Below are positions 3,106-30,799 of a DNA stretch of 64,000 nucleotides, one piece after another. Position 1 is the first letter of the stretch. Every line of letters starts with the position of its first letter. Made by a program: the position numbers and the translations under genes. The notes beneath the pieces were generated by a model. That model was given only the letters and a program-made list of their open reading frames with translations. It ran no database searches and was not told the DNA's origin. The DNA is from Antrihabitans cavernicola (GTDB lineage: Bacteria > Actinomycetota > Actinomycetes > Mycobacteriales > Mycobacteriaceae), in contig NZ_VLNY01000004.1 of NCBI RefSeq assembly GCF_008297975.1, forward strand, positions 186,001 through 250,000, in the 5' to 3' direction.

Positions 3106-3169
3106 CAGGTTTCGAAACTTTTTCTGCAGAAGGCGTAACGAACCCGTCCTCATGCCGATCTACCTATCG

Positions 3170-3220
3170 ACCCCGCGTTGTTGCCGGACCCCCGACCTGG
3201 CAACAACACGGGGTCTTCTC
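3170..3220 (+). terminator. Rho-independent-type terminator after holA
   Basis: Arms CCCCGcGTTGTTGCC (from 3171) and GGCAACAACaCGGGG (to 3213) pair almost perfectly around an 11-13 nt loop and are followed by a pyrimidine-rich TCTTCTCTTT. It lies between the end of holA and the end of the convergent gene, so it may serve both strands. The T-run is weak, which is common in high-GC actinobacteria. Confidence 0.75.
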
Positions 3221-6718: not shown

Positions 6719-8365
6719 ATGAGCCGCCGATCATCGACGAAGTCGGCCCGTACTCCCGTCGCGTCAGCCCGGAGTAGGGCAACCCAGAAGCAAATTTTCG
6801 ATGGTTACAACGATTCCGGGTCCTATGACCAAGCGTTCGACGAAATGTTCGACAGCGACGGTGGTGTTCGAGCGCCGTACAAGCGGATTTTCGAAGCGTT
6901 GGCACCGACGCGGCCCGACGATCTGGGGGCCCGTGCCGACGCGCTCGGCCGTGCGTTCGTCGATCAGGGCATCACTTTCTCGCTGTCCGGCCAGGAGCGG
7001 CCGTTCCCTCTGGACCTGGTGCCACGCGTGCTGGCGGCGGCGGAATGGGCGCGTCTGGAGCGCGGAATCAAGCAGCGGGTCGAGGCGCTGGAAATGTTCC
7101 TCGCCGACGTCTACGGCGAACAGACCATCTTGCGCGACCTCGTCATTCCCAAAAGGCTCGTCACGTCCTGCGAGCACTTTCACCGCGAGGCCGCCGGGTT
7201 CGTCCCGCCGAACGGCGTGCGTATCCATGTTTCCGGCATCGATCTGATTCGCGACGAAAAAGGCGTCTTCCGTGTGTTGGAGGACAACCTGCGGTCGCCG
7301 TCGGGCGTGTCGTACGTGATGGAGAACCGCCGCACGATGGCGCGGGTGTTCCCCGATCTGTTCTCCTCGCACCGTGTGCGCGCAGTCGGCGACTACGCGA
7401 GCCACCTGCTGCGTGCACTGCGGGCATCGGCCGCGTTGAACGAAGCCGACCCCACGGTGGTGGTGCTGACGCCTGGCGTGGCGAACTCCGCGTACTTCGA
7501 GCATTCGCTGTTGGCGCGTCAGATGGGTGTGGAACTGGTCGAGGGTCGCGACCTCTTCTGCCGTGACAACCTCGTCTACATGCGGACGACGGAGGGGGAG
7601 CGACAGGTCGACGTCGTCTATCGGCGTATCGACGACGACTTCCTCGACCCGATGCACTTCCGACCCGATTCGGTACTGGGCGTCGCGGGCATCCTGAACG
7701 CGGCGCGCGCGGGCAACGTGGTGATCTCGAGTGCGGTCGGTAACGGTGTCGGCGACGACAAGCTGGTCTACACCTACGTGCCGACCATCATCGAGTACTA
7801 CCTCAACGAAAAGCCGTTGCTGGCCAACGTCGATACGTTCCGCTGCTGGCTGGACGACGAGTGTGAAGAGGTGCTCGATCGCGTCGACGAACTGGTGATC
7901 AAACCCGTGGAGGGCTCCGGCGGCTACGGGATCGTGTTCGGTCCGGACGCGTCGCCGAAGGAGCTCGACACGATCACCCGCAAGATCAAGGCGGATCCCC
8001 GAGGCTGGATCGCGCAGCCGGTGGTGCAGCTCTCGACGGTGCCGACCAAGATCGACGATCAGCTGGCACCGCGCCACGTCGACCTGCGTCCGTTCGCCGT
8101 CAACGACGGCGAGAGCGTGTGGGTACTGCCCGGCGGCCTCACCCGGGTCGCGTTGCCGGAAGGATCGCTGGTGGTCAACTCCAGCCAAGGCGGTGGCAGC
8201 AAGGACACCTGGGTGCTGGCGAGCCGCGCATCCGTTGCCGAGCAAGAACTCTCGGGTGACGAGTTGGTCGGCGAGCCGCCGGAAGGTCGGGACGCAGAGC
8301 ACGGGCCGGAGCTGTCGAACCAGCAACAGCAACAGCAGCAGCAACAGATCGGCGGTGAGGGCTGA
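6719..8365 (+). CDS. Circularly permuted ATP-grasp type 2 protein
   Basis: A predicted peptide-bond or amide ligase of the circularly permuted ATP-grasp group (DUF404/DUF407), counterpart of M. tuberculosis Rv2411c. Family landmarks are [56 protein letters not shown] and [13 protein letters not shown]. At 548 residues it has normal family length. The C-terminus carries nine consecutive glutamines (codons at 8321-8347), an unusual tail. The stop overlaps the alpha-E gene start by one base (TGATG). Substrate unknown; the conserved trio suggests synthesis or modification of a small peptide or amide. No strong ribosome binding site precedes the ATG, so the exact start is less sure. Confidence 0.88.
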
Positions 8366-20373: not shown

Positions 20374-21458
20374 GCTCCAGTGCACCGACGCAGTACTCCG
20401 GCGCCAACATGATCACCGTGACCGGTGCCAACAAGCACTACGGCAACTTCGCGGCGCTGGACAACGTGACGCTCGACATTCCGTCGGGTTCGCTGACGGC
20501 ACTGCTCGGCCCGTCGGGCTCCGGTAAGTCGACGCTGCTGCGCTCGATCGCAGGCTTGGAGACGTTGGACTCGGGGATCGTGACGATCGCCGGCCGGGAC
20601 GTCACGCACATCTCGCCGCAGAAGCGTGACATCGGCTTCGTGTTCCAGCACTACGCCGCGTTCAAGCACATGTCGGTCCGCGACAACGTGGCCTTCGGCC
20701 TGAAGATTCGCAAGCGTCCGAAGCCCGAAATCGCCAAGCGGGTAGACGAATTGCTCGGAATCGTCGGACTCGACGGCTTTCAGCATCGCTACCCGGCGCA
20801 ACTCTCGGGAGGCCAGCGTCAGCGCATGGCGCTGGCGCGTGCGCTCGCCGTCGATCCGCAGGTGCTGCTGCTCGACGAGCCGTTCGGCGCGCTCGACGCC
20901 AAGGTGCGCACCGATCTGCGGACGTGGCTCCGGCGTTTGCACGAGGAAGTGCATGTCACGACCGTGCTGGTGACTCACGATCAGGAAGAGGCGCTCGACG
21001 TCGCCGACCGGATCGCGGTGCTCAACAAGGGCCGCATCGAGCAGGTCGGCACACCGGAAGACCTCTACGACCGGCCGGAGAACGATTTCGTCATGTCGTT
21101 CCTGGGGCCCGTCGCGAAGTTGAACGGCAAGTTGGTGCGCCCGCACGACATTCGGGTCGGGCGCGATCCCGCGATGGCGCAGGCTCAGCTGGAGGGCACA
21201 GCGGAATCGGCCGGTGTCACCCGCGCCACGGTCGAGCGAGTGGTGCACCTCGGGTTCGAGGTGCGCGTGGAATTGCGCAATGCGGCAACCGGCGACCTGT
21301 TCGCCGCGCAGGTGACGCGTGGCGACAGCGAAGCGCTGCGGCTCAGTGAGGGCGAAACGGTCTACGCGCGGGCAACGCGACTGCCGCAGCTGCCGGAAAA
21401 CGTTATCGAGCAGCCGGAATCCGCAGGAGTCGGGGAACCCCTCACCACGTCTAAGTGA
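20370..21458 (+). CDS. cysA: Sulfate/thiosulfate ABC transporter ATPase
   Basis: ATP-hydrolysing subunit of the importer, 362 residues. Walker [11 protein letters not shown]-loop [12 protein letters not shown], signature [15 protein letters not shown], Walker [12 protein letters not shown] and the H-loop [10 protein letters not shown] are all intact. A TOBE-like regulatory domain follows from about residue 240. ATG in a 4-bp overlap with cysW. Its 3' end overlaps the end of the convergent MFS gene by 8 bp. Confidence 0.95.
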
Positions 21459-22692
21459 GGGAGGGTGCCCCTGACTCGGGCCGTCGGGTGCGAACCAGGC
21501 GACGCAGTCCGAATGCGAGCAGGAGTGCGGCGACGAGCAGGACGCCGACGAAAATCGTCAACCCGTTCCAGCCTGCCGCGTGAAATGCGATTCCGCCGAC
21601 GGCGCCGGCGATCGCGCTGCCGAAGTAGTAGCCGAACAGGTACAGCGACGACGCCTCGGCGCGGTGCACCGTTGCGATCCGGCTCACCCAACCGCTGGCC
21701 ACCGAGTGCGCACCGAAGAATCCGGCCGTGAACAGTGCGACACCGATCAGTATCCAGGCGATCGAATTCGCCAGTGTGGCAAGCAAGCCCACGCTCGCGA
21801 CCACTACGGATACCGTCAGCACCTGCGATCGGCCGAAGCGATCTGCCGATCGACCGGCTGCCGCTGACGACACGGTGCCTGCCAGATAGAGCAGGAAGAC
21901 CGACCCGATCACCGCTTGCGACAGGTGAAACGGCGCGGCCATGAGTCGGTAGCCCAGATAGTTGTAGACCGTGACGAACCCACCCATCAGGACAAATCCG
22001 AGCGTGAACAAACTCAGCAGCGCGGGATTGCGCAGGTGCGCAGCCAGATTGGCGACGGTCGAGCGGATGCCGACGCGACGCGAGGTGAAGTAGCGCGACT
22101 CCGGGAGTTCGCGGACGAAGATCAGCGCGAACGCCGTCGCAGCGATCGCGGCGCATTCCATCGCCCACCGCCACGACGTGAGATCCAGTACCGCGGCGGG
22201 GATCAGCCGGCCGACAAGGCCACCGATGGTCGTTCCCGCGATGTAGCGGCCTGCGGCTGCACCCAACGAATCCGAGTGGATTTCCTCGGCCAGGTAGGCC
22301 ATCGCAACAGCAGGGACACCGGCGAGCGCGATGCCTTGGGCCGCACGACACGCCAGCAGCACTTCGATCGACGGGCTGAGGGGGAGTAACAAGCCGATTG
22401 CGGACGACGCCGCCGCGGAGATGGCCATCACCCTGCGGCGTCCGTAGCGTTCGGACAACACGCTCGCCGGAACGATGGCGAGCGCCAAGAAGCCGGTGGT
22501 GACCGAGACCGCGAGCGCCGAGGTCGCTGGGGACACGCCGAAATACTCGGAGAACGTCGGCAGCACGGCTTGCGCGCTGTACATCGACACGAACGTCGTC
22601 AGACCCGCCGCGAACAGCGCGAGCGTGATGCGTCTATATCCGGCGGATCCGCGCTGGTGAGCGTGGGTTCTCGCTTCGGCCTGCAGTGTCAT
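21451..22692 (-). CDS. MFS transporter (drug/metabolite exporter type)
   Basis: 413-residue twelve-helix transporter. The motif-A-like loop is [13 protein letters not shown] after helix 2, and its second copy [14 protein letters not shown] sits between helices 8 and 9. The closest known type by eye is YnfM/arabinose-exporter-like. Start ATG 22692 chosen because AGGAGG precedes it. It is transcribed away from the LysR gene, the usual arrangement for a LysR-controlled exporter, and lies beside the NRPS gene, so export of the NRPS product is one possibility. Substrate unknown. Confidence 0.85.
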
Positions 22693-22759
22693 CGAACCTC
22701 CTGATTCCCATCGTCGTCCGAGCGGTCTCATAACGGAAATGAATCGTTGTCGCCTCGGT

Positions 22760-22776
22760 TATGCTCTAGCTGCATA
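22760..22776. promoter_or_regulatory. Palindrome between MFS and LysR genes, candidate LysR operator
   Basis: TATGC-N7-GCATA is a perfect inverted repeat and contains the T-N11-A core bound by LysR-type proteins. It ends immediately before the AGGAGG of the LysR gene and lies 68 bp from the MFS start, a position suited to autoregulation and divergent control. Confidence 0.55.
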
Positions 22777-22787
22777 TAGGAGGTGCG

Positions 22788-23687
22788 ATGCTGGGCGACG
22801 ATCTCCGGTGGTTCATCACTCTCGCCGAACTGGAGCAGGTCACTGCCGCCGCAGACGAGCTCCACATCGCTCAGCCGACGTTGTCGCGCATGTTGGCGCG
22901 ATTGGAACGCAGGCTGAACGCCGAACTGTTCGACAGACGCGGTAAACGCATAGCGCTCAACCGCTTCGGGCGCATCTACTACGAGCGGGCGCGACGTGCG
23001 CAAGCCGAACTCGATGCGGCGCAACGAGAGATCGGCGATCTGATCGATCCCGCGCAGGGGACCGTCGCGCTCTCGTTCCTGCATTCGTTCGGGGTGCGAC
23101 TGGTCCCGGCTCTGATCGCGCAGTTTCGTACGCAGTCGCCGCGAGTGACGTTCACTCTGACGCAGGATGCTGCGGACGCGGTGACGAGGCGGGTGACGAC
23201 AGGTGAAGCCGACCTGGCGATCGTGTCGCCGCGGCCTGCGGGATCGACGGTGGCGTGGCGACGACTGATGTTGCAGCGACTGGCCCTGGCTGTCCCCGCC
23301 ACCCACCGCTTCGCCGATCGCCGCCAGATCGGACTCGCCGATGCGATCGACGAACCGTTCATCGCGATGCACCCCGACTTCGGCATGCGGCGCATCCTTG
23401 AAGAGCTCTGTGCCGCAGCGCATTTTCGGCCTCGAGTGACGTTCGAGTCGAGCGAGCTCGGCACGGTTGCCGGGCTGGTGAGTGCAGGCCTAGGCGTCGC
23501 CGTCCTGCCCGTCGACGATCAGCCTCAGCTCCCGCCGGGCCTGGTGCTCATCCCGCTCGTCGACGCCGGCGCCACCCGGGAGATCGGGGTGATCTGGAAC
23601 CCGGACAGGCCGTTGTCGCGGCCGGTCCGGGCGTTCCGAGACTTCGTCGAAGAATGGAGCACGCGCCCCGATCAGCTGCGCGCGTGA
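22788..23687 (+). CDS. LysR-family transcriptional regulator
   Basis: 299 residues. The N-terminal helix-turn-helix is LEQVTAAADELHIAQPTLSR and MLARLERRLNAELFDRRGK. The C-terminal part is a type-2 periplasmic-binding-like effector domain (VALSFLHSFGVRLVPALIAQ, GEADLAIVSPRP, GLVSAGLGVAVLPVDDQP). It is likely to control the divergent MFS gene and itself. ATG after a strong AGGAGG. Its end overlaps the end of the convergent NRPS gene by 16 bp. Confidence 0.9.
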   Translation: MLGDDLRWFITLAELEQVTAAADELHIAQPTLSRMLARLERRLNAELFDRRGKRIALNRFGRIYYERARRAQAELDAAQREIGDLIDPAQGTVALSFLHSFGVRLVPALIAQFRTQSPRVTFTLTQDAADAVTRRVTTGEADLAIVSPRPAGSTVAWRRLMLQRLALAVPATHRFADRRQIGLADAIDEPFIAMHPDFGMRRILEELCAAAHFRPRVTFESSELGTVAGLVSAGLGVAVLPVDDQPQLPPGLVLIPLVDAGATREIGVIWNPDRPLSRPVRAFRDFVEEWSTRPDQLRA

Positions 23688-26600
23688 ACGGGTGCCCCGA
23701 GTGCTTCGCCGAGAACGGGACCGAGTAGCTGCAACGCACCCGGTGCCATCATCTCGCCGTGGTGGGCGGCGATAGAGACGTCCGTGATGCGACCGGTCAC
23801 GTGTGGAGCCCAGGTATCGGCAGCATCGGCGCGGGTCGGATGATCCAGCGCCGCACTGAAGAACAGCACATCGCCGTCGAACGGCCGAGGCCGGTGCTGC
23901 TGCATCAGATCGCCTGCACGCAGCGCACTGGCGAACAGACGTTGCGCCCGTTCCGGGGTGAGTGCCGAGGATCCGACTGCCATGTCGTCGAGGAGACGCT
24001 GCGCCTGCGCCAACGAGAACTCGCCGTCCGGCGCGTCCAAGTCCACGTCGACTCCGAGCGAACGTAGGGTCTGCGCCAGTTCGGTGCGCACCATGTCCGC
24101 GTCCGTCTCGCGGATGGAGTCGACCAATGTCAGCGATGCCACCTCTTCACCCGCGGCCTGCAACTGCGTGGCCATCGCGTGGGCGATCACACCGCCGAGC
24201 GACCAGCCGAGTAGGTGGTACGGGCCGTGCGGTTGTGCGCGGCGAATCTCCTCGACGTAGCGTGCAGCGATCCGGTCGATCGACGCGGGGTTGTCATCCG
24301 CCTCGAGAATCGAGGGCGACTGCAGCCCGTAGATCTGGCGCGTCGGTTGCACGTATTCGGTGAGGCCCCAGTACATCCAGGCCAGACCGCTGATGGGGTG
24401 CACGCAGAACAGCGGCTGCTCGGTGTTGCCGCGACCGATCGGAATCAGTACGTCGAGTCCGTCGCTCGCCTTGTCGGCAGTATCGACATCGGAGGTGACT
24501 CGGCGCGCCAGGTCGTGCACCGTCCGATGGGTGAAGAACCATTGCAGCGCAACGCGTATGCCCAATGTCTTGGTGAGCCGGGCGCTGGCGCGTGCCGCGA
24601 GGAGTGAGTGTCCGCCGAGTTCGAAGAAGTCGTCGTCGATGCTCACCCGATCGACCGCGAGCAGATCTTCGAAGACCGCTGCGATCGCGTCTTCGATTCG
24701 ATTGCTCGGCGCGCGGTAGGGGGTGACGTCCGTCCGCGGCGCGGGCAGCGCCTGCCGGTCCAGCTTGCCGTGCTTGGTCAGCGGTAGCTCGTCCAACACC
24801 ACTGATGCGGACGGAATCATGTACGACGGCAGTTGATGTGCGAGTGTCGATTTGAGATCGGCGGTGTCGATGCTGGCGCCCTCGGTGGGAACCACGTAGC
24901 CGACCAGCTGGTCACCGGAACTCTCGTTGGATCGCGACAACACCGCCACCTGCGCAACGTCTTCCAGGCGCAGCAGCGCTGCCTCGATCTCGCCGAGCTC
25001 GATGCGGAAGCCACGCACTTTCACCTGGAAGTCGGTGCGGCCCACATATTGCAGCTCGCCCTGTTCGGTCCACGACACCAGGTCGCCGGTTCGATACATC
25101 CGCGCGCCGACATCGCCGTAGGGATTGGCGACGAATCGCTCTGCCGTCAAAGCGCTTTGGCCGTGGTAGCCGCGAGCGAGTTGTGTACCCGCCAAGTACA
25201 ACTCCCCAGGAACCCCTGCGGGCATGGGGTGCAGCCGGGCATCGAGGACGAGCACCTGCGTGTTCCACTCGGGCATTCCCACCGGTACGGCCGCCGTATC
25301 CGCCGCGTCCACGGTGTGCGCTGTGACCGACACCGCGGCCTCGGTGGGACCGTAGAGGTTGAACAACGTCGCGTTGTTGCCACCGAGGAAGCGTTGAGCC
25401 GTCGCAGCGGGGAGCACTTCACCGATTGCGAGGACGCGACGCAATGAGGTCGGTAGCTTGCCTTCCGCTTCCACGAGCAGGGCGTCGAGCATCGACGGCA
25501 CCGCATGCAGCGTGGTGATCTCTTCGGCACGCAACACGTCGTTGAGATACGACGGGTCACGATGGCCGCCGGGTCCCGCAAGCACCATGCGCCCACCCGA
25601 CACTGCCGCAGTCCAGTACTCCCAGACGGAGAGATCGAATGTCGCCGCGGTCTTGACAAGGATGGCGTCGTCGGCACCGAGCTCGAACTCGGATCGCTTC
25701 CACTGCAACTGATGTGCAATCGCGCCGTGGCTCAGCGACACGCCCTTCGGTCGGCCGGTCGAACCGGACGTGAAGATGACGTAGGCGGTGTTCGTCGGGT
25801 TCAGCGGTGCCAGTCGATCGCTGTCACGGATGGTGCTGTCGTCGTAGTCGGCGAGGTTCAGCTCGTCGACTACCACCGTGCGTACGGTAGTGGCCTCGAA
25901 GCTGTCTCGGCTCGTCGTCAGAACACACACCGGATCGACGATGTCGAATTGGTAGGCGGTGCGATCGGCGGGCTGAGACGGATCGATGGGAACGTACGCG
26001 CCGCCTGACTTCGCGACGGCGAACATGGCGATCACCAACTCCACTGATCGCTCCATGGCGAGAACGACCGTGGACTCGGGTCCGACGCCGGCGTCGATCA
26101 GGTAGCGCGCGAGGCGATTGACGCGAGCGTCCAGTTCGGCGTACGACAAAGTGGCATTGCGTTCCCAGCCGCTGTCTCCGCATGCAACCAGGGCTGTGTT
26201 GTCGGCGTGTTCGGCAACCTGCGCGTCGAGGAGCGTGGCGAGAGTCGCCGAGGTATCGGTGCGTTGCTGTGTGCGATTCCACCGTGACACCACGCGCTCA
26301 CGCTCGCCGGTTTCCAGCAGATCGATGTCACCGACGGGCGCCTGCGGGTCGGCGACGACCGACCGCAGCACGCGCTCGTAGCGTTCGGCGAACTGCGCGA
26401 TGGTGGCCTGATCGAAAAGGTCTACCGCGTAGGAGAATTCGATCACGATGTCATCGGGGCGGCCGTCGTGATCGTGTTGATCGATGACGGTCACCTGCAG
26501 GTCGGTCTTGGCGAGGTTGGCGTCGAGCTCGACGGGACTTACGGTCAGTCCGGGCAGTTCCAGCGTGCCGTGCGAGAGATTCTGGAACAGGAAGCCGATT

Positions 26601-29524
26601 TGGTAGATGGGGTTGCGGGCGTTGCTGCGAGGCGGATTGAGCACCTCGACGAGCCGCTCGAACGGCACCTCTGCATGCGCGTAGGCCTGTAGATCCGTTT
26701 CGCGGACCCGACTCAGCAGATCGTCGAAGCCCTCCGACTGTTCCAACCGCACTCGCAGCACGAGGGTGTTGACGAACATGCCGATCAGATCGTCGAGTAC
26801 CGCTTCGCCACGCCCGGCGATCGGAGTGCCGACGGCCACGTCGTCGGTGCCGGACAGCCGACCCAGCAGCACCGACAATGCCGCGTGCATGACCATGAAC
26901 AACGACGATCCGTTGCGGCGCGACAGCTCCAGCAGGTCGTGGTGCAGTGCGCCGTCCAACGTGAATTGCGTTGTGGCGCCTCGGAAGGACTGCGCCGCCG
27001 GGCGCGGGCGGTCACCGGGGAGTTCGAGTTGATCGGGCATACCGGCCAATTGCTCGGTCCAATAGTCGATCTGGCGGGCCGCCAACGAATTCGGATCGTT
27101 GTCGGCGCCGAGCAACGCGCGCTGCCACAACGAGTAGTCGGCATATTGCACGCTCAGCGGTGCCCATTGCGGCGCCATCCCCTGGGTGCGCGCCGCGTAC
27201 GCGACGGTGAGATCCCGCGCGAACGGAGCGATGGAGGAACCGTCGGCGGCAACGTGATGGACGACGAACGCCAGCACGCAGTCGTCGCCGACCTCGAAGA
27301 CGCGTGCGTGCACGGGAACCTCGACGGCGACGTCGAAACCGCGCATTGCGACGGCCAACACGCTGTCGAGTACCTCGTGCTCGTCGATCACGACGGGCGT
27401 CAAATCTGGGATGGCCTGTGCCGCAGGAACAACGACCTGGCACGGCTCGGTGTTGTCGAGCGGGTAGTACGTACGCAACGATTCGTGACGCTCGAAGACA
27501 TCGGCGAATGCTGCCTGCAATGCGCCTGTGTCGAGATCGCCCGAAAGTCGAAGGGCGAACGGAATGTTGTCCACCGCGGACGCGGTGTCGAATTGATTCA
27601 GGAACCAGTACCGCTGCTGCGCAAAGGACACCGGGACCCGTTCGGGCCGCGGGCCTGCGACGAGTGCGGGGCGAGCACCCTGGCCGCGCAGCGGTTCGAC
27701 CACCGTCGCGAGTGTGCTGACCGTCGGTGATTCGAACAGCGCACGGGCTGGAATACGCGCGTCGAGCGCGGCGCCCAGTCGAGCTGCGACCTGCGTTGCG
27801 ATGAGCGAGTTTCCGCCCAGTTCGAAGAAGTCGCCGTTGCCGCCCACGTTGTCTATCCCGAGAACATCGGCATATACGGACGCGATCAATTCTTCGAGCG
27901 GTCCTTCGGGTGCCCGGTAGGCGGCGGTTTCGAAAATCGGTTCGGGCAATGCGGCGCGGTCGAGCTTGCCGACCGGTGTCAGCGGGATCTCGTCGAGCAC
28001 GATGATCGACGAGGGAAGCATGTACGCGGGGAGCGACAACGCGATGAAGGATTCGAGCTCTTTGACATCGACGCGGCCTGCCTTCGGCAGGACGTAGGAA
28101 ACCAATGTCGTTGCACCCGAGGGGGCTTCCCGACCGACTGTGGCTGCGAAGCTGACATCGGGATGATCGGCGAGTGCGGCATCGATTTCGCCGAGCTCGA
28201 TGCGGAAGCCGCGGACCTTGACCTGAAAGTCGTTGCGCCCGATGAACTCGATCGCACCGTTCTCACGGCGACGGACGACATCGCCGGTGCGATACATCCG
28301 TGTGCCCGGCTCACCCGACGGGCTCGCGACGAAACGACCGGCCGTCAGTGCGAGCCGGTGGTGATAGCCGCGGGCCAGCTGGATTCCGGTCAGATAGAGC
28401 TCGCCGGCAACGCCGACAGGGACGGGCGAGAGGCGCTCGTCGAGTACGTGCGCTGCCATGTTGCGAACGGCGGGGCCGATGGTGATCGATTGGCCGGGCA
28501 CCAGCGGATCGCTGATGTTGGACATGATCGTGGTCTCGGTCGGCCCGTATCCGTTGTAGAACTCGCGGCCGGTCGCCCACCGGTTCACCAGGTCCGGGCC
28601 GCATGCATCGCCGCCGACCACCACGACGCGGAGATCGTCGAGGCCATCGGGATCGACCGACGACAGCGCGGCGGGCGTGATGAACGTGTGTGTGACCCGC
28701 TCGCGGGCGAACAGATCCTTCAACTCGTCGCCGCCGTAGACGGACGGGGGAGCGATGACCATCGTGGCGCCCGCCCCGACCGCAAGCAGTAGCTCGAGAA
28801 CGGACGCGTCGAAGCTCGGCGAGGCGAAGTGCAGCGCGCGGGACTCGGCGGAGACGCCGTAGCGCTCGCGCTGTTCGGCGCAGAAGCTGTCCAGTCCGGT
28901 ATGGGTGACCAGCACACCCTTCGGGCGACCGGTGGAACCCGATGTGTAGATCACGTATGCGGTGTGTTCCGGGCGGAGCGGGCTGATCCGATCGTCGTAG
29001 GACACCGGATCCGCGGACTGCTGCGCGACACCCTTCGTCAACTCGTCGTCGTCGAGCGCGAGCCAGGCGATCCCGTCGGGAAGCTGATCGCGGACGCCGG
29101 TCAGCGTCAGGCCCACGAGCGCGCCGGAGTCGGTGATCATGTGCGCTACCCGGTCGGCCGGATAGTCGGGATCGACGGGAACGAAGCCGGCACCGGTCTT
29201 GGCCACGGCCCACACGGCGACGATCGAGTCGATCGAGCGGGGAATACCGATGGCGATCAAATCCTCCGGACCCAGGCCCCGAGCGATGAGTACCCGGGCC
29301 AACTGCGACGAGCGGGCGTCCAGTTCGGCATAGGTGACGGTGGCACCTGCGAAGGACAGCGCGGTGCCGTCGGGATTGGCTTCCGCGGCGCTGCCGAGTA
29401 GCTGTGGCAACGTCGCGACCCGCTTCGGCTTGCGACGAACCGGTCGTTGCCTGCTCGCGGGCCGTTTCGAGGACGAATCTCGCGCGTCGGGATCGATCCG
29501 TGACAGTGAATTACCTATCGTCAT
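23672..29524 (-). CDS. Two-module non-ribosomal peptide synthetase (A-PCP-C-A-PCP-TE)
   Basis: 1950-residue NRPS. Order: adenylation A1 (about 36-545; YVIYTSGSTGRPKGV, YGPTETT, GKLDRAALP), carrier PCP1 with Ser573 in FFELGGNSL, condensation C (about 615-1060) with HHVAADG at 756-762, A2 (about 1115-1610; YVIFTSGSTGRPKGV, YGPTEAA), PCP2 with Ser1640 in FFELGGHSL, and a thioesterase with GWSLGG (Ser1775) and a late HHGE histidine. There is no epimerase, methyltransferase or MbtH gene. The layout predicts a dipeptide or a dimerised or cyclised product. Binding-pocket residues read by eye: A1 D-A-L-I-V-G-G-I-M-K (no sure match, hydrophobic); A2 D-L-W-H-L-I-L-V-S-K (nearest to serine codes but differing at key positions). 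ATG after AAGGAG. It sits between two sulfur operons where M. tuberculosis has none. Confidence 0.95.
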   Translation of the reverse strand: MTIGNSLSRIDPDARDSSSKRPASRQRPVRRKPKRVATLPQLLGSAAEANPDGTALSFAGATVTYAELDARSSQLARVLIARGLGPEDLIAIGIPRSIDSIVAVWAVAKTGAGFVPVDPDYPADRVAHMITDSGALVGLTLTGVRDQLPDGIAWLALDDDELTKGVAQQSADPVSYDDRISPLRPEHTAYVIYTSGSTGRPKGVLVTHTGLDSFCAEQRERYGVSAESRALHFASPSFDASVLELLLAVGAGATMVIAPPSVYGGDELKDLFARERVTHTFITPAALSSVDPDGLDDLRVVVVGGDACGPDLVNRWATGREFYNGYGPTETTIMSNISDPLVPGQSITIGPAVRNMAAHVLDERLSPVPVGVAGELYLTGIQLARGYHHRLALTAGRFVASPSGEPGTRMYRTGDVVRRRENGAIEFIGRNDFQVKVRGFRIELGEIDAALADHPDVSFAATVGREAPSGATTLVSYVLPKAGRVDVKELESFIALSLPAYMLPSSIIVLDEIPLTPVGKLDRAALPEPIFETAAYRAPEGPLEELIASVYADVLGIDNVGGNGDFFELGGNSLIATQVAARLGAALDARIPARALFESPTVSTLATVVEPLRGQGARPALVAGPRPERVPVSFAQQRYWFLNQFDTASAVDNIPFALRLSGDLDTGALQAAFADVFERHESLRTYYPLDNTEPCQVVVPAAQAIPDLTPVVIDEHEVLDSVLAVAMRGFDVAVEVPVHARVFEVGDDCVLAFVVHHVAADGSSIAPFARDLTVAYAARTQGMAPQWAPLSVQYADYSLWQRALLGADNDPNSLAARQIDYWTEQLAGMPDQLELPGDRPRPAAQSFRGATTQFTLDGALHHDLLELSRRNGSSLFMVMHAALSVLLGRLSGTDDVAVGTPIAGRGEAVLDDLIGMFVNTLVLRVRLEQSEGFDDLLSRVRETDLQAYAHAEVPFERLVEVLNPPRSNARNPIYQIGFLFQNLSHGTLELPGLTVSPVELDANLAKTDLQVTVIDQHDHDGRPDDIVIEFSYAVDLFDQATIAQFAERYERVLRSVVADPQAPVGDIDLLETGERERVVSRWNRTQQRTDTSATLATLLDAQVAEHADNTALVACGDSGWERNATLSYAELDARVNRLARYLIDAGVGPESTVVLAMERSVELVIAMFAVAKSGGAYVPIDPSQPADRTAYQFDIVDPVCVLTTSRDSFEATTVRTVVVDELNLADYDDSTIRDSDRLAPLNPTNTAYVIFTSGSTGRPKGVSLSHGAIAHQLQWKRSEFELGADDAILVKTAATFDLSVWEYWTAAVSGGRMVLAGPGGHRDPSYLNDVLRAEEITTLHAVPSMLDALLVEAEGKLPTSLRRVLAIGEVLPAATAQRFLGGNNATLFNLYGPTEAAVSVTAHTVDAADTAAVPVGMPEWNTQVLVLDARLHPMPAGVPGELYLAGTQLARGYHGQSALTAERFVANPYGDVGARMYRTGDLVSWTEQGELQYVGRTDFQVKVRGFRIELGEIEAALLRLEDVAQVAVLSRSNESSGDQLVGYVVPTEGASIDTADLKSTLAHQLPSYMIPSASVVLDELPLTKHGKLDRQALPAPRTDVTPYRAPSNRIEDAIAAVFEDLLAVDRVSIDDDFFELGGHSLLAARASARLTKTLGIRVALQWFFTHRTVHDLARRVTSDVDTADKASDGLDVLIPIGRGNTEQPLFCVHPISGLAWMYWGLTEYVQPTRQIYGLQSPSILEADDNPASIDRIAARYVEEIRRAQPHGPYHLLGWSLGGVIAHAMATQLQAAGEEVASLTLVDSIRETDADMVRTELAQTLRSLGVDVDLDAPDGEFSLAQAQRLLDDMAVGSSALTPERAQRLFASALRAGDLMQQHRPRPFDGDVLFFSAALDHPTRADAADTWAPHVTGRITDVSIAAHHGEMMAPGALQLLGPVLGEALGAPVHARS

Positions 29525-30046
29525 TCGAGTTCGACTCCTTGCTTACGGTGATGCGCGTTCATCGAAATGCTTCGGGCTCGATCTCATGACCCAGATTTGA
29601 GTACCCAATTATCGCAAATTACCTCTGCTTACGAAAATCGAACTGGTCACTCGAGTGATAATTTGCACAAGAAATTACTGCGGGTGATCGAGGGCGCGGC
29701 CGCTACGACTGCAGTCCGAATTGTCCGACGCGATCGGGAAATATGCAGGTGAAGTGATGTTTTTGGCCGATTAACGCATCGTGGACTCTTTGTATTACAG
29801 TCTGTTCGTACACCGTGAATGCATTCATTACAGTAGGAATGCGGCGCAGATAAAGTCTTTCGATATTATTTCGACGCGATTCAAGCCCTGGTGACACGCA
29901 TATTCACGACGGTAAACAGAATTCTTTCGAGAATTATCGGATCTTTGCGGACCTACGGTCTGTTTAGCAGCGCATACTCACACGGCCGGTCAGGAATGCG
30001 ACACATTGTGCGCGTGCTGCAACGCAGCGTCAGGCGGCGCTCGCAG
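29525..30046. other. AT-rich gene-free region upstream of the NRPS
   Basis: 522 bp without a convincing gene on either strand, and clearly poorer in G+C than everything around it. It must hold the NRPS promoter. On the minus strand a GATAAT (about 29612-29617) could be the -10 element, some 90 bp before the start. It also contains a 12-bp perfect palindrome at 29647-29658. The part from 29760 to 29960 shows nothing I can name; it may be a remnant of an insertion. No iron box of the IdeR type is seen. Confidence 0.6.
29647..29658. promoter_or_regulatory. 12-bp perfect palindrome upstream of the NRPS promoter
   Basis: TCACTCGAGTGA, its own reverse complement, lies about 30 bp upstream of the presumed NRPS -10 element on the minus strand. 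That is where an activator or a repressor covering the -35 region would bind. No regulator can be named. Confidence 0.4.
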
Positions 30047-30799
30047 TCATGCCGTCAAATCGCTCGGGCGCCCATCGAGCTGTGAGCGTGCCAGGTCGTA
30101 CCGATCCAGCAACACGCTCGCGACCAGGTGATGTGAGCCGAGGACGTCTGCGCAGGTCACGTCGGCGTCGGCGGAATTCGCGGCAGCCGCGACCCGGTCG
30201 GTGAGCAATCCGGGCGCCAAGAACCACGGTGCAACGACGATGCGGCGGGCACCGCGCGCTCGCAGCGCGGCAATCGCGTGCTCGACGGAGGGATCGGCAG
30301 TCGCGAAACACAGTTCCGCTCGCCACTCCGTGCCCGCCACGACGGCATCGACCACGCGGCGGGTGCGCAGATTCGCGGCGACGCGGGATGAGCCGACAGC
30401 GGCCACGGCAACGCCGAGACGAGCATCACCGCTGATGGCGCCAGCGTCGATCACCCTGTTCCGCACGATCGTGGGCAGACGCGGATCGGCACCGAGAACG
30501 TCGGCTTGCTGCAGTGCGAGGTGAGGGTGGTCGGCCCGGGCGCGCGCGAGGATGCCCGGTAGGTCGATGCGTGCGTGAAATGCGTTGCCGAGTAGCAGCG
30601 GTGCCACCACGGCGCCGGTGTGCCCCTCGGCGGCGATCGCGTCGATCAACCCGTGCACCGATGGCGCGTTGAGATCGAGAAAGCAGAGTCGTACGTCCAG
30701 GCCCGGTCTGGTTCGCCGAACCTCGTCGACCACCGCAGCCATGACCCTCGCGGAACGAGGGTCGCGGCTGCCGTGTGCGACGGCGATCAACGGAACCAT
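30047..30799 (-). CDS. Sirohydrochlorin chelatase (CbiX-type)
   Basis: Inserts Fe into sirohydrochlorin to make siroheme, the cofactor of SirA encoded in the same operon. 250 residues in two CbiX-like halves: PLIAVAHGSRDPRSARVMAA with VVAPLLLGNAFHARIDLPGI in the first, and LGVAVAAVGSSRVAANLRTR with RRIVVAPWFLAPGLLTDRVA in the second. His in AHGSRD and the LLLGNAFHAR His are the expected metal ligands. Last gene of the sulfur operon, 10 bp after cysN; same location as Rv2393. Confidence 0.88.
   Translation of the reverse strand: MVPLIAVAHGSRDPRSARVMAAVVDEVRRTRPGLDVRLCFLDLNAPSVHGLIDAIAAEGHTGAVVAPLLLGNAFHARIDLPGILARARADHPHLALQQADVLGADPRLPTIVRNRVIDAGAISGDARLGVAVAAVGSSRVAANLRTRRVVDAVVAGTEWRAELCFATADPSVEHAIAALRARGARRIVVAPWFLAPGLLTDRVAAAANSADADVTCADVLGSHHLVASVLLDRYDLARSQLDGRPSDLTA

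Follow-up and report, generated by a model that had tools for sequence, protein, structure and literature searches.

Linear gramicidin synthetase LgrA carries a formylation domain, lacks a thioesterase (TE) and belongs to a longer assembly line, with valine loaded by the adenylation (A) domain of its first module and glycine loaded by A2. EntF consists of one module, which is fed by EntB and has a canonical serine pocket (DVWHFSLVD, or DVWH-x-SL-x-DK), and the A domains of both EntF and Txo load serine. The aureusimine synthetase AusA ends in a reductase domain. The nonribosomal peptide synthetase (NRPS) that we describe here, from a 64,000-nucleotide window (the whole stretch of DNA analysed) of Antrihabitans cavernicola, resembles each of LgrA, EntF and AusA in part. 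LgrA (PDB 6mfz and others) is its best solved relative, over NRPS residues 35-1689, and EntF (PDB 5ja1 and 3tej) has a C-A-T-TE order like that of its second half, with related A and TE domains. AusA (NCBIfam NF047350) is also an A-first enzyme of two modules, but the NRPS matches its model at 907 bits, far under the cut-off of 2500, and ends in a TE rather than a reductase. The complete order A-T-C-A-T-TE, at 1964-1982 aa, is found in the two-module NRPSs of genus g6 (genomes G304, G258 = Leaf278, G298 = KRD162, G286 and G163) and of Nocardia australiensis, and the N. australiensis enzyme has both pockets identical to those of the A. cavernicola NRPS.

Much larger systems are described in Nocardia, where the very large Ser-rich NRPS clusters #35 and #36 are predicted to incorporate 12-13 residues into a product that, like the role of these NRPSs, is unknown in that study (Komaki et al. 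2014, PMC4035055), in contrast to the two modules found here. A survey of 28 strains reports 79 NRPS families, 71 of them with unknown products (Ceniceros et al. 2017, PMC5550956). Among the listed papers that name Antrihabitans, we noticed none on an NRPS of this genus, and our searches for literature on a Rhodococcus sulfate-NRPS combination or a Ser-rich Nocardia lipopeptide found none.

Domain organization of the A. cavernicola synthetase

The gene, its domains and the two genes at its 3′ side are as follows.
21451..22731, (-) strand: MFS transporter (assigned at family level only, under the model cut-offs), divergent from the LysR gene
22788..23687, (+) strand: LysR-family regulator (assigned at family level only, under the model cut-offs), with a 16-bp overlap between its 3′ end and that of the NRPS gene
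23672..29524, (-) strand: NRPS gene, 1950 aa, ATG start, A-T-C-A-T-TE (from the open reading frame, Pfam and our own-profile scan)
23705..24427, (-) strand: type I thioesterase, residues 1700-1940, Ser1775/Asp1802/His1922
24503..24718, (-) strand: T2 carrier domain, residues 1603-1674, Ser1640
24728..26266, (-) strand: A2, residues 1087-1599, pocket DLWHLILVSK
26315..27649, (-) strand: C domain, residues 626-1070, HHVAADG, His757
27704..27919, (-) strand: T1 carrier domain, residues 536-607, Ser573
27935..29419, (-) strand: A1, residues 36-530, pocket DALFVGGIMK, valine-like, aligned to LgrA A1
29420..29524, (-) strand: Lys/Arg-rich N-terminal tail, residues 1-35, directly before A1

The initial annotation proposed a one-protein, two-module A-PCP-C-A-PCP-TE line with intact core motifs and no assigned product, and our analysis of the reading frame, Pfam matches, domain order and residues agrees with this. 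Pfam identifies two AMP-binding, two AMP-binding_C, two PP-binding, one Condensation and one Thioesterase domain (with Abhydrolase_1 also covering the TE region), and our own-profile scan places these in the order A-T-C-A-T-TE within a single protein. The carrier serines, the HHxxxDG motif, the adenylation lysines (520 in A1 and 1587 in A2) and the TE Ser-Asp-His are all present and are kept in both orthologues described below; loss of a key catalytic residue had been named as an observation that would speak against the annotation, and on alignment none of the residues checked is missing. By domain order and catalytic residues, as read from the sequence, this is a two-module NRPS with a TE. 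We found no characterised enzyme that it resembles closely over its full length, and none of its 25 best NCBIfam matches is to an equivalog above cut-off.

Adenylation pockets and predicted product

The A2 pocket had been read by eye as resembling, without equalling, serine codes; this reading, DLWHLILVSK, is exact, and differs from the canonical serine code at Leu236, Ile301 and Ser331, so that A2 was rejected as a canonical serine pocket. Among solved A domains, the A2 subdomain scores 209 bits against FscH, 189 against Txo1/Txo2 and 182 against EntF, compared with 125 bits (best single stretch) against LgrA A2, 207 over two stretches against 8xjz, and at most 130 against the others. The second residue is unsure, as Ile301 and Ser331 stand where Ser and Asp are usual, and with three departures from the code it could be other than serine-like; LgrA A2, which is also related to this domain, loads glycine. 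The A1 pocket, DALFVGGIMK, had been given no matching code; compared by eye in PDB alignments, it equals that of LgrA A1 (D-G-L-Y-I-G-G-I-M-K) at 7 of 10 positions, the rest being A/G, F/Y and V/I. These three differences are conservative, and A1 therefore appears close to LgrA module 1 and valine-like.

That the pockets are unusual is not supported, since both recur among the Nocardiaceae NRPSs of our sample. In the 530 A domains that we fetched, DLWHLILVSK occurs 125 times and DALFVGGIMK 26 times, the commonest pocket being DVWHFSLVD (143), although these counts are biased since the 139 loci of origin were chosen for likeness to the NRPS protein. The 530 domains remained from 644 aligned rows after removal of short rows (<330 letters) and duplicates, and a few copies may persist where loci overlap. 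Frames of at least 2500 aa hold 120 of the 125 domains with the A2 code and 18 of the 26 with the A1 code, and we infer that many of these large frames belong to the Ser-rich Nocardia cluster type of Komaki et al. No literature text containing either DLWHLILVSK or DALFVGGIMK was found, and one paper contains only the serine-type DVWHFSLVDK; the part seen of a lydiamycin paper (PMC12130866) contains no matching pocket code.

With moderate confidence, we read this NRPS as a stand-alone dipeptide synthetase, which probably joins Val/Ile to a serine-like residue and releases the product with its own TE. The residues, Val/Ile first and the serine-like one second, are predicted from the likeness of A1 to LgrA A1 and of A2 to FscH, Txo, EntF and LgrA. 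A1 would adenylate valine (or isoleucine) and load it on T1, A2 would place a serine-like residue on T2, the C domain would condense both into a dipeptide on T2, and the TE would release this in free, cyclised or oligomerised form; the enzyme would be served by a phosphopantetheinyl transferase and by an MbtH protein encoded elsewhere in the genome. Manufacture of the dipeptide by the NRPS alone is plausible, and a lone NRPS with no tailoring enzymes beside it may rely on genes located far away.

The TE may instead act as in EntF, oligomerising at least two dipeptides to a cyclic compound rather than releasing a monomer. A serine-like second residue would supply the hydroxyl for this, and by name that of EntF ranks second among solved TEs in nearness (92 bits), but the nearest is 7crn (Non-ribosomal peptide synthetase 4), at 138 bits, and TE similarity is too low to carry a mechanism; we consider oligomerisation possible, though unlikely. 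Knowledge of the substrates of A1 and A2 would reveal what DALFVGGIMK and DLWHLILVSK load, helping to decode the unassigned, very large NRPSs of Nocardia and relatives. The gene itself is ordinary, and as a self-contained two-module line with a TE it would be a small handle on pocket types that recur in Nocardiaceae.

Orthologues and genomic setting

The A. cavernicola genome (5.66 Mb, 41 contigs) is rich in NRPSs, with 77 matches to a condensation profile that also matches related domains, and the NRPS under study holds the only such match on its contig. On another contig (C41; locus L165, + strand frame from position 8025), the genome also encodes an A-first NRPS of three modules that shares this A1 pocket and ends in a TE 50% identical to the one studied here. 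A search of related genomes for the same protein, as the initial annotation had suggested, identified orthologues in two of the three other Antrihabitans genomes examined, A. stalagmiti YC3-6 (63.6% identity by codon alignment) and Antrihabitans sp. YC2-6 (61.3%), whereas the remaining one, G002, lacks an orthologue and at best has a 51% identical match inside a 4476-aa frame. The A2 pocket is identical in all three species, and the A1 pocket is DALFVGGIMK in A. cavernicola and YC2-6 and DALFIGGIMK in YC3-6, a single V-to-I change. A1 of the YC3-6 orthologue also has an insertion of about 12 residues just before the NGYGPTE motif.

Pairwise Nei-Gojobori dN/dS values are 0.23 (A. cavernicola and YC3-6), 0.27 (A. 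cavernicola and YC2-6) and 0.24 (YC3-6 and YC2-6), at dS values of 1.2-1.4 across the three orthologues that are near saturation (1.3 for A. cavernicola against YC3-6 and 1.2 against YC2-6). Judged by these ratios, the gene is under purifying selection in the three species. Its size, smaller than most frames carrying its pocket codes, and the lack of a tailoring gene among the neighbouring open reading frames scanned might suggest that the gene is decaying and is what remains of a larger NRPS, but its frame is open, its residues are intact and dN/dS is low across the three species; decay is thus highly improbable, and this reading was set aside.

NCBIfam places cysT, cysW and cysA on one flank of the NRPS and cysN, cysD and cysH on the other, the latter together with a cbiX-like chelatase and a sulfite/nitrite reductase assigned at family level only, below model cut-offs. 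The initial annotation placed the gene between two sulfur operons, a position that these flanks bear out; the MFS transporter and LysR regulator, which it did not mention, occupy the interval between cysA and the NRPS. No MFS or LysR homologue was present in the stretches fetched beside either orthologue, and these two genes are therefore no fixed part of the system. No MbtH gene and no tailoring enzyme was found among the neighbouring open reading frames scanned, in agreement with the initial annotation, and the two MbtH genes of the genome are on other contigs. As signs of a siderophore NRPS, metal-binding building blocks or iron-linked neighbours were looked for, and NCBIfam recognised none among 20 open reading frames (the NRPS and 19 around it).

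The same arrangement in A. stalagmiti YC3-6, where the orthologue occupies the same cbiX-cysA site, so that in both species the gene is located between the cysTWA and cbiX-cysNDH-nirA groups, would fit an NRPS tied to sulfur assimilation, e.g., one that is controlled by sulfate and whose peptide contains cysteine or sulfur. The YC2-6 orthologue, which has the same pockets, is however located between an SBP_bac_3-domain gene (adjoining pknG) and NUDIX and thiE genes, neither pocket is known to resemble a cysteine code, and six further cysA-cbiX regions (two from Antrihabitans and four from other family members) contain no NRPS match. We therefore set the sulfur link aside as the main reading, regard it as very unlikely, and give the sulfur setting of the initial annotation less weight: with the YC2-6 orthologue at another site, the sulfur operons are probably chance neighbours. 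The cysA-cbiX interval holds a second cysD/cysN pair in G002, YC2-6 (G003) and G025, which indicates that this junction is a variable site; cysA and cbiX are about 70 bp apart in one of the six further regions, and two of the six have intervals of about 1.8 and 6.7 kb matching none of the window proteins listed. As judged from these comparisons, the NRPS does not need the sulfur setting, and its site is variable.

Our DNA-level scans upstream of the NRPS found no sigma-70-like promoter (the only promoter type scanned), no terminator consensus, and no exact same-strand stretch of at least 11 bases shared by the upstream regions of the three orthologues. Base composition does not shift across the gene, except for 58% GC in the 1-kb bin with the upstream gap. 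Repeats were considered as marks of an insertion over positions 21300-30200 and rejected, as the longest are between the two homologous NRPS modules and the rest are short. Rfam gave one match at its gathering threshold, far from the NRPS: an F6 small RNA family member at window positions 3164-3220 (+ strand; 57.3 bits against a cut-off of 46).

Relatives in the Nocardiaceae and the N-terminal tail

A tree of 25 terminal C-A-T-TE stretches groups the three Antrihabitans enzymes as a clade at 100/100, with the same-site pair of A. cavernicola and YC3-6 at 100/99. The nearest kin of this clade (99/99) are N. australiensis, a four-module frame of G012 and Rhodococcus sp. 1168, followed with weaker support (81/93) by five two-module enzymes of genus g6, a genus that includes Rhodococcus sp. 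KRD162, Leaf278 and 1168. A query with the T2-TE region at 1e-45 has matches in 266 of 401 family genomes drawn evenly from a larger group, and among the matches listed those from outside Antrihabitans reach at most 48% identity. N. australiensis, Rhodococcus sp. 1168 and five g6 genomes carry two-module frames of 1964-1995 aa that end in a TE, in each case next to further NRPS genes. We viewed eight regions for NRPS context, and five show a complete two-module frame, a proportion that is no frequency because the regions had been selected by the length of their frames or the similarity of their TEs. By this placement, the A. cavernicola NRPS is kin to the A-first, two-module, TE-ended NRPSs of other Nocardiaceae, and its solitary position sets the Antrihabitans form apart from relatives that cluster with NRPS genes. 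As part of the explanation that we favour with moderate confidence, the lone Antrihabitans gene would have changed place at least once.

Counted over the 35 frame residues ahead of A1, of which the first precedes the ATG, the N-terminal tail of the NRPS has a net charge of +8. Similar charge is widespread in the A-first frames sampled: of 33, 23 reach a net charge of at least +6, four range from +2 to +5 and six from -3 to -9, compared with a mean of -2.9 for internal A domains, 20 of 181 of which reach +6 or more. The 33 frames, taken from 356 closed-start frames with exclusion of any that had masked letters ahead of the domain, are mutually related, and a C-first control for tail charge was empty, as only two C-first frames passed the filter. 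Arg/Lys-rich tails besides that of the NRPS were identified at loci L010, L011, L071, L077, L165, L199, L200, L202 and L203. Given this relatedness, and given that tails in high-GC genes are prone to be rich in Arg, we treat the tail as a lead, not a finding; it is doubtful that an Arg/Lys-rich tail common to Nocardiaceae A-first NRPSs represents an undescribed targeting or docking element. Were it one, the lone enzyme, having no neighbouring NRPS as a docking partner, would indicate that the tail acts on something different, e.g., the membrane or a shared partner protein.

The tail also bears on whether the NRPS works with another NRPS of the cell, its Arg-rich N-terminus serving as the docking element. 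The recurrence of such tails in A-first frames, and the position of the two-module relatives of g6, N. australiensis and Rhodococcus sp. 1168 next to other NRPS genes, are consistent with a partner, but the enzyme ends in a TE with its triad, has the sole C-domain match on its contig (C34) and possesses no N-terminal C domain to take a chain from an upstream enzyme, so that we judge such a partnership unlikely and retain the stand-alone dipeptide synthetase as the preferred reading. The six acidic A-first frames comprise five large NRPSs of Rhodococcus-group genomes and one of G012. A G012 NRPS frame (locus L168, + strand, from position 716) shows a short, weak A-domain match ahead of its first full A domain.
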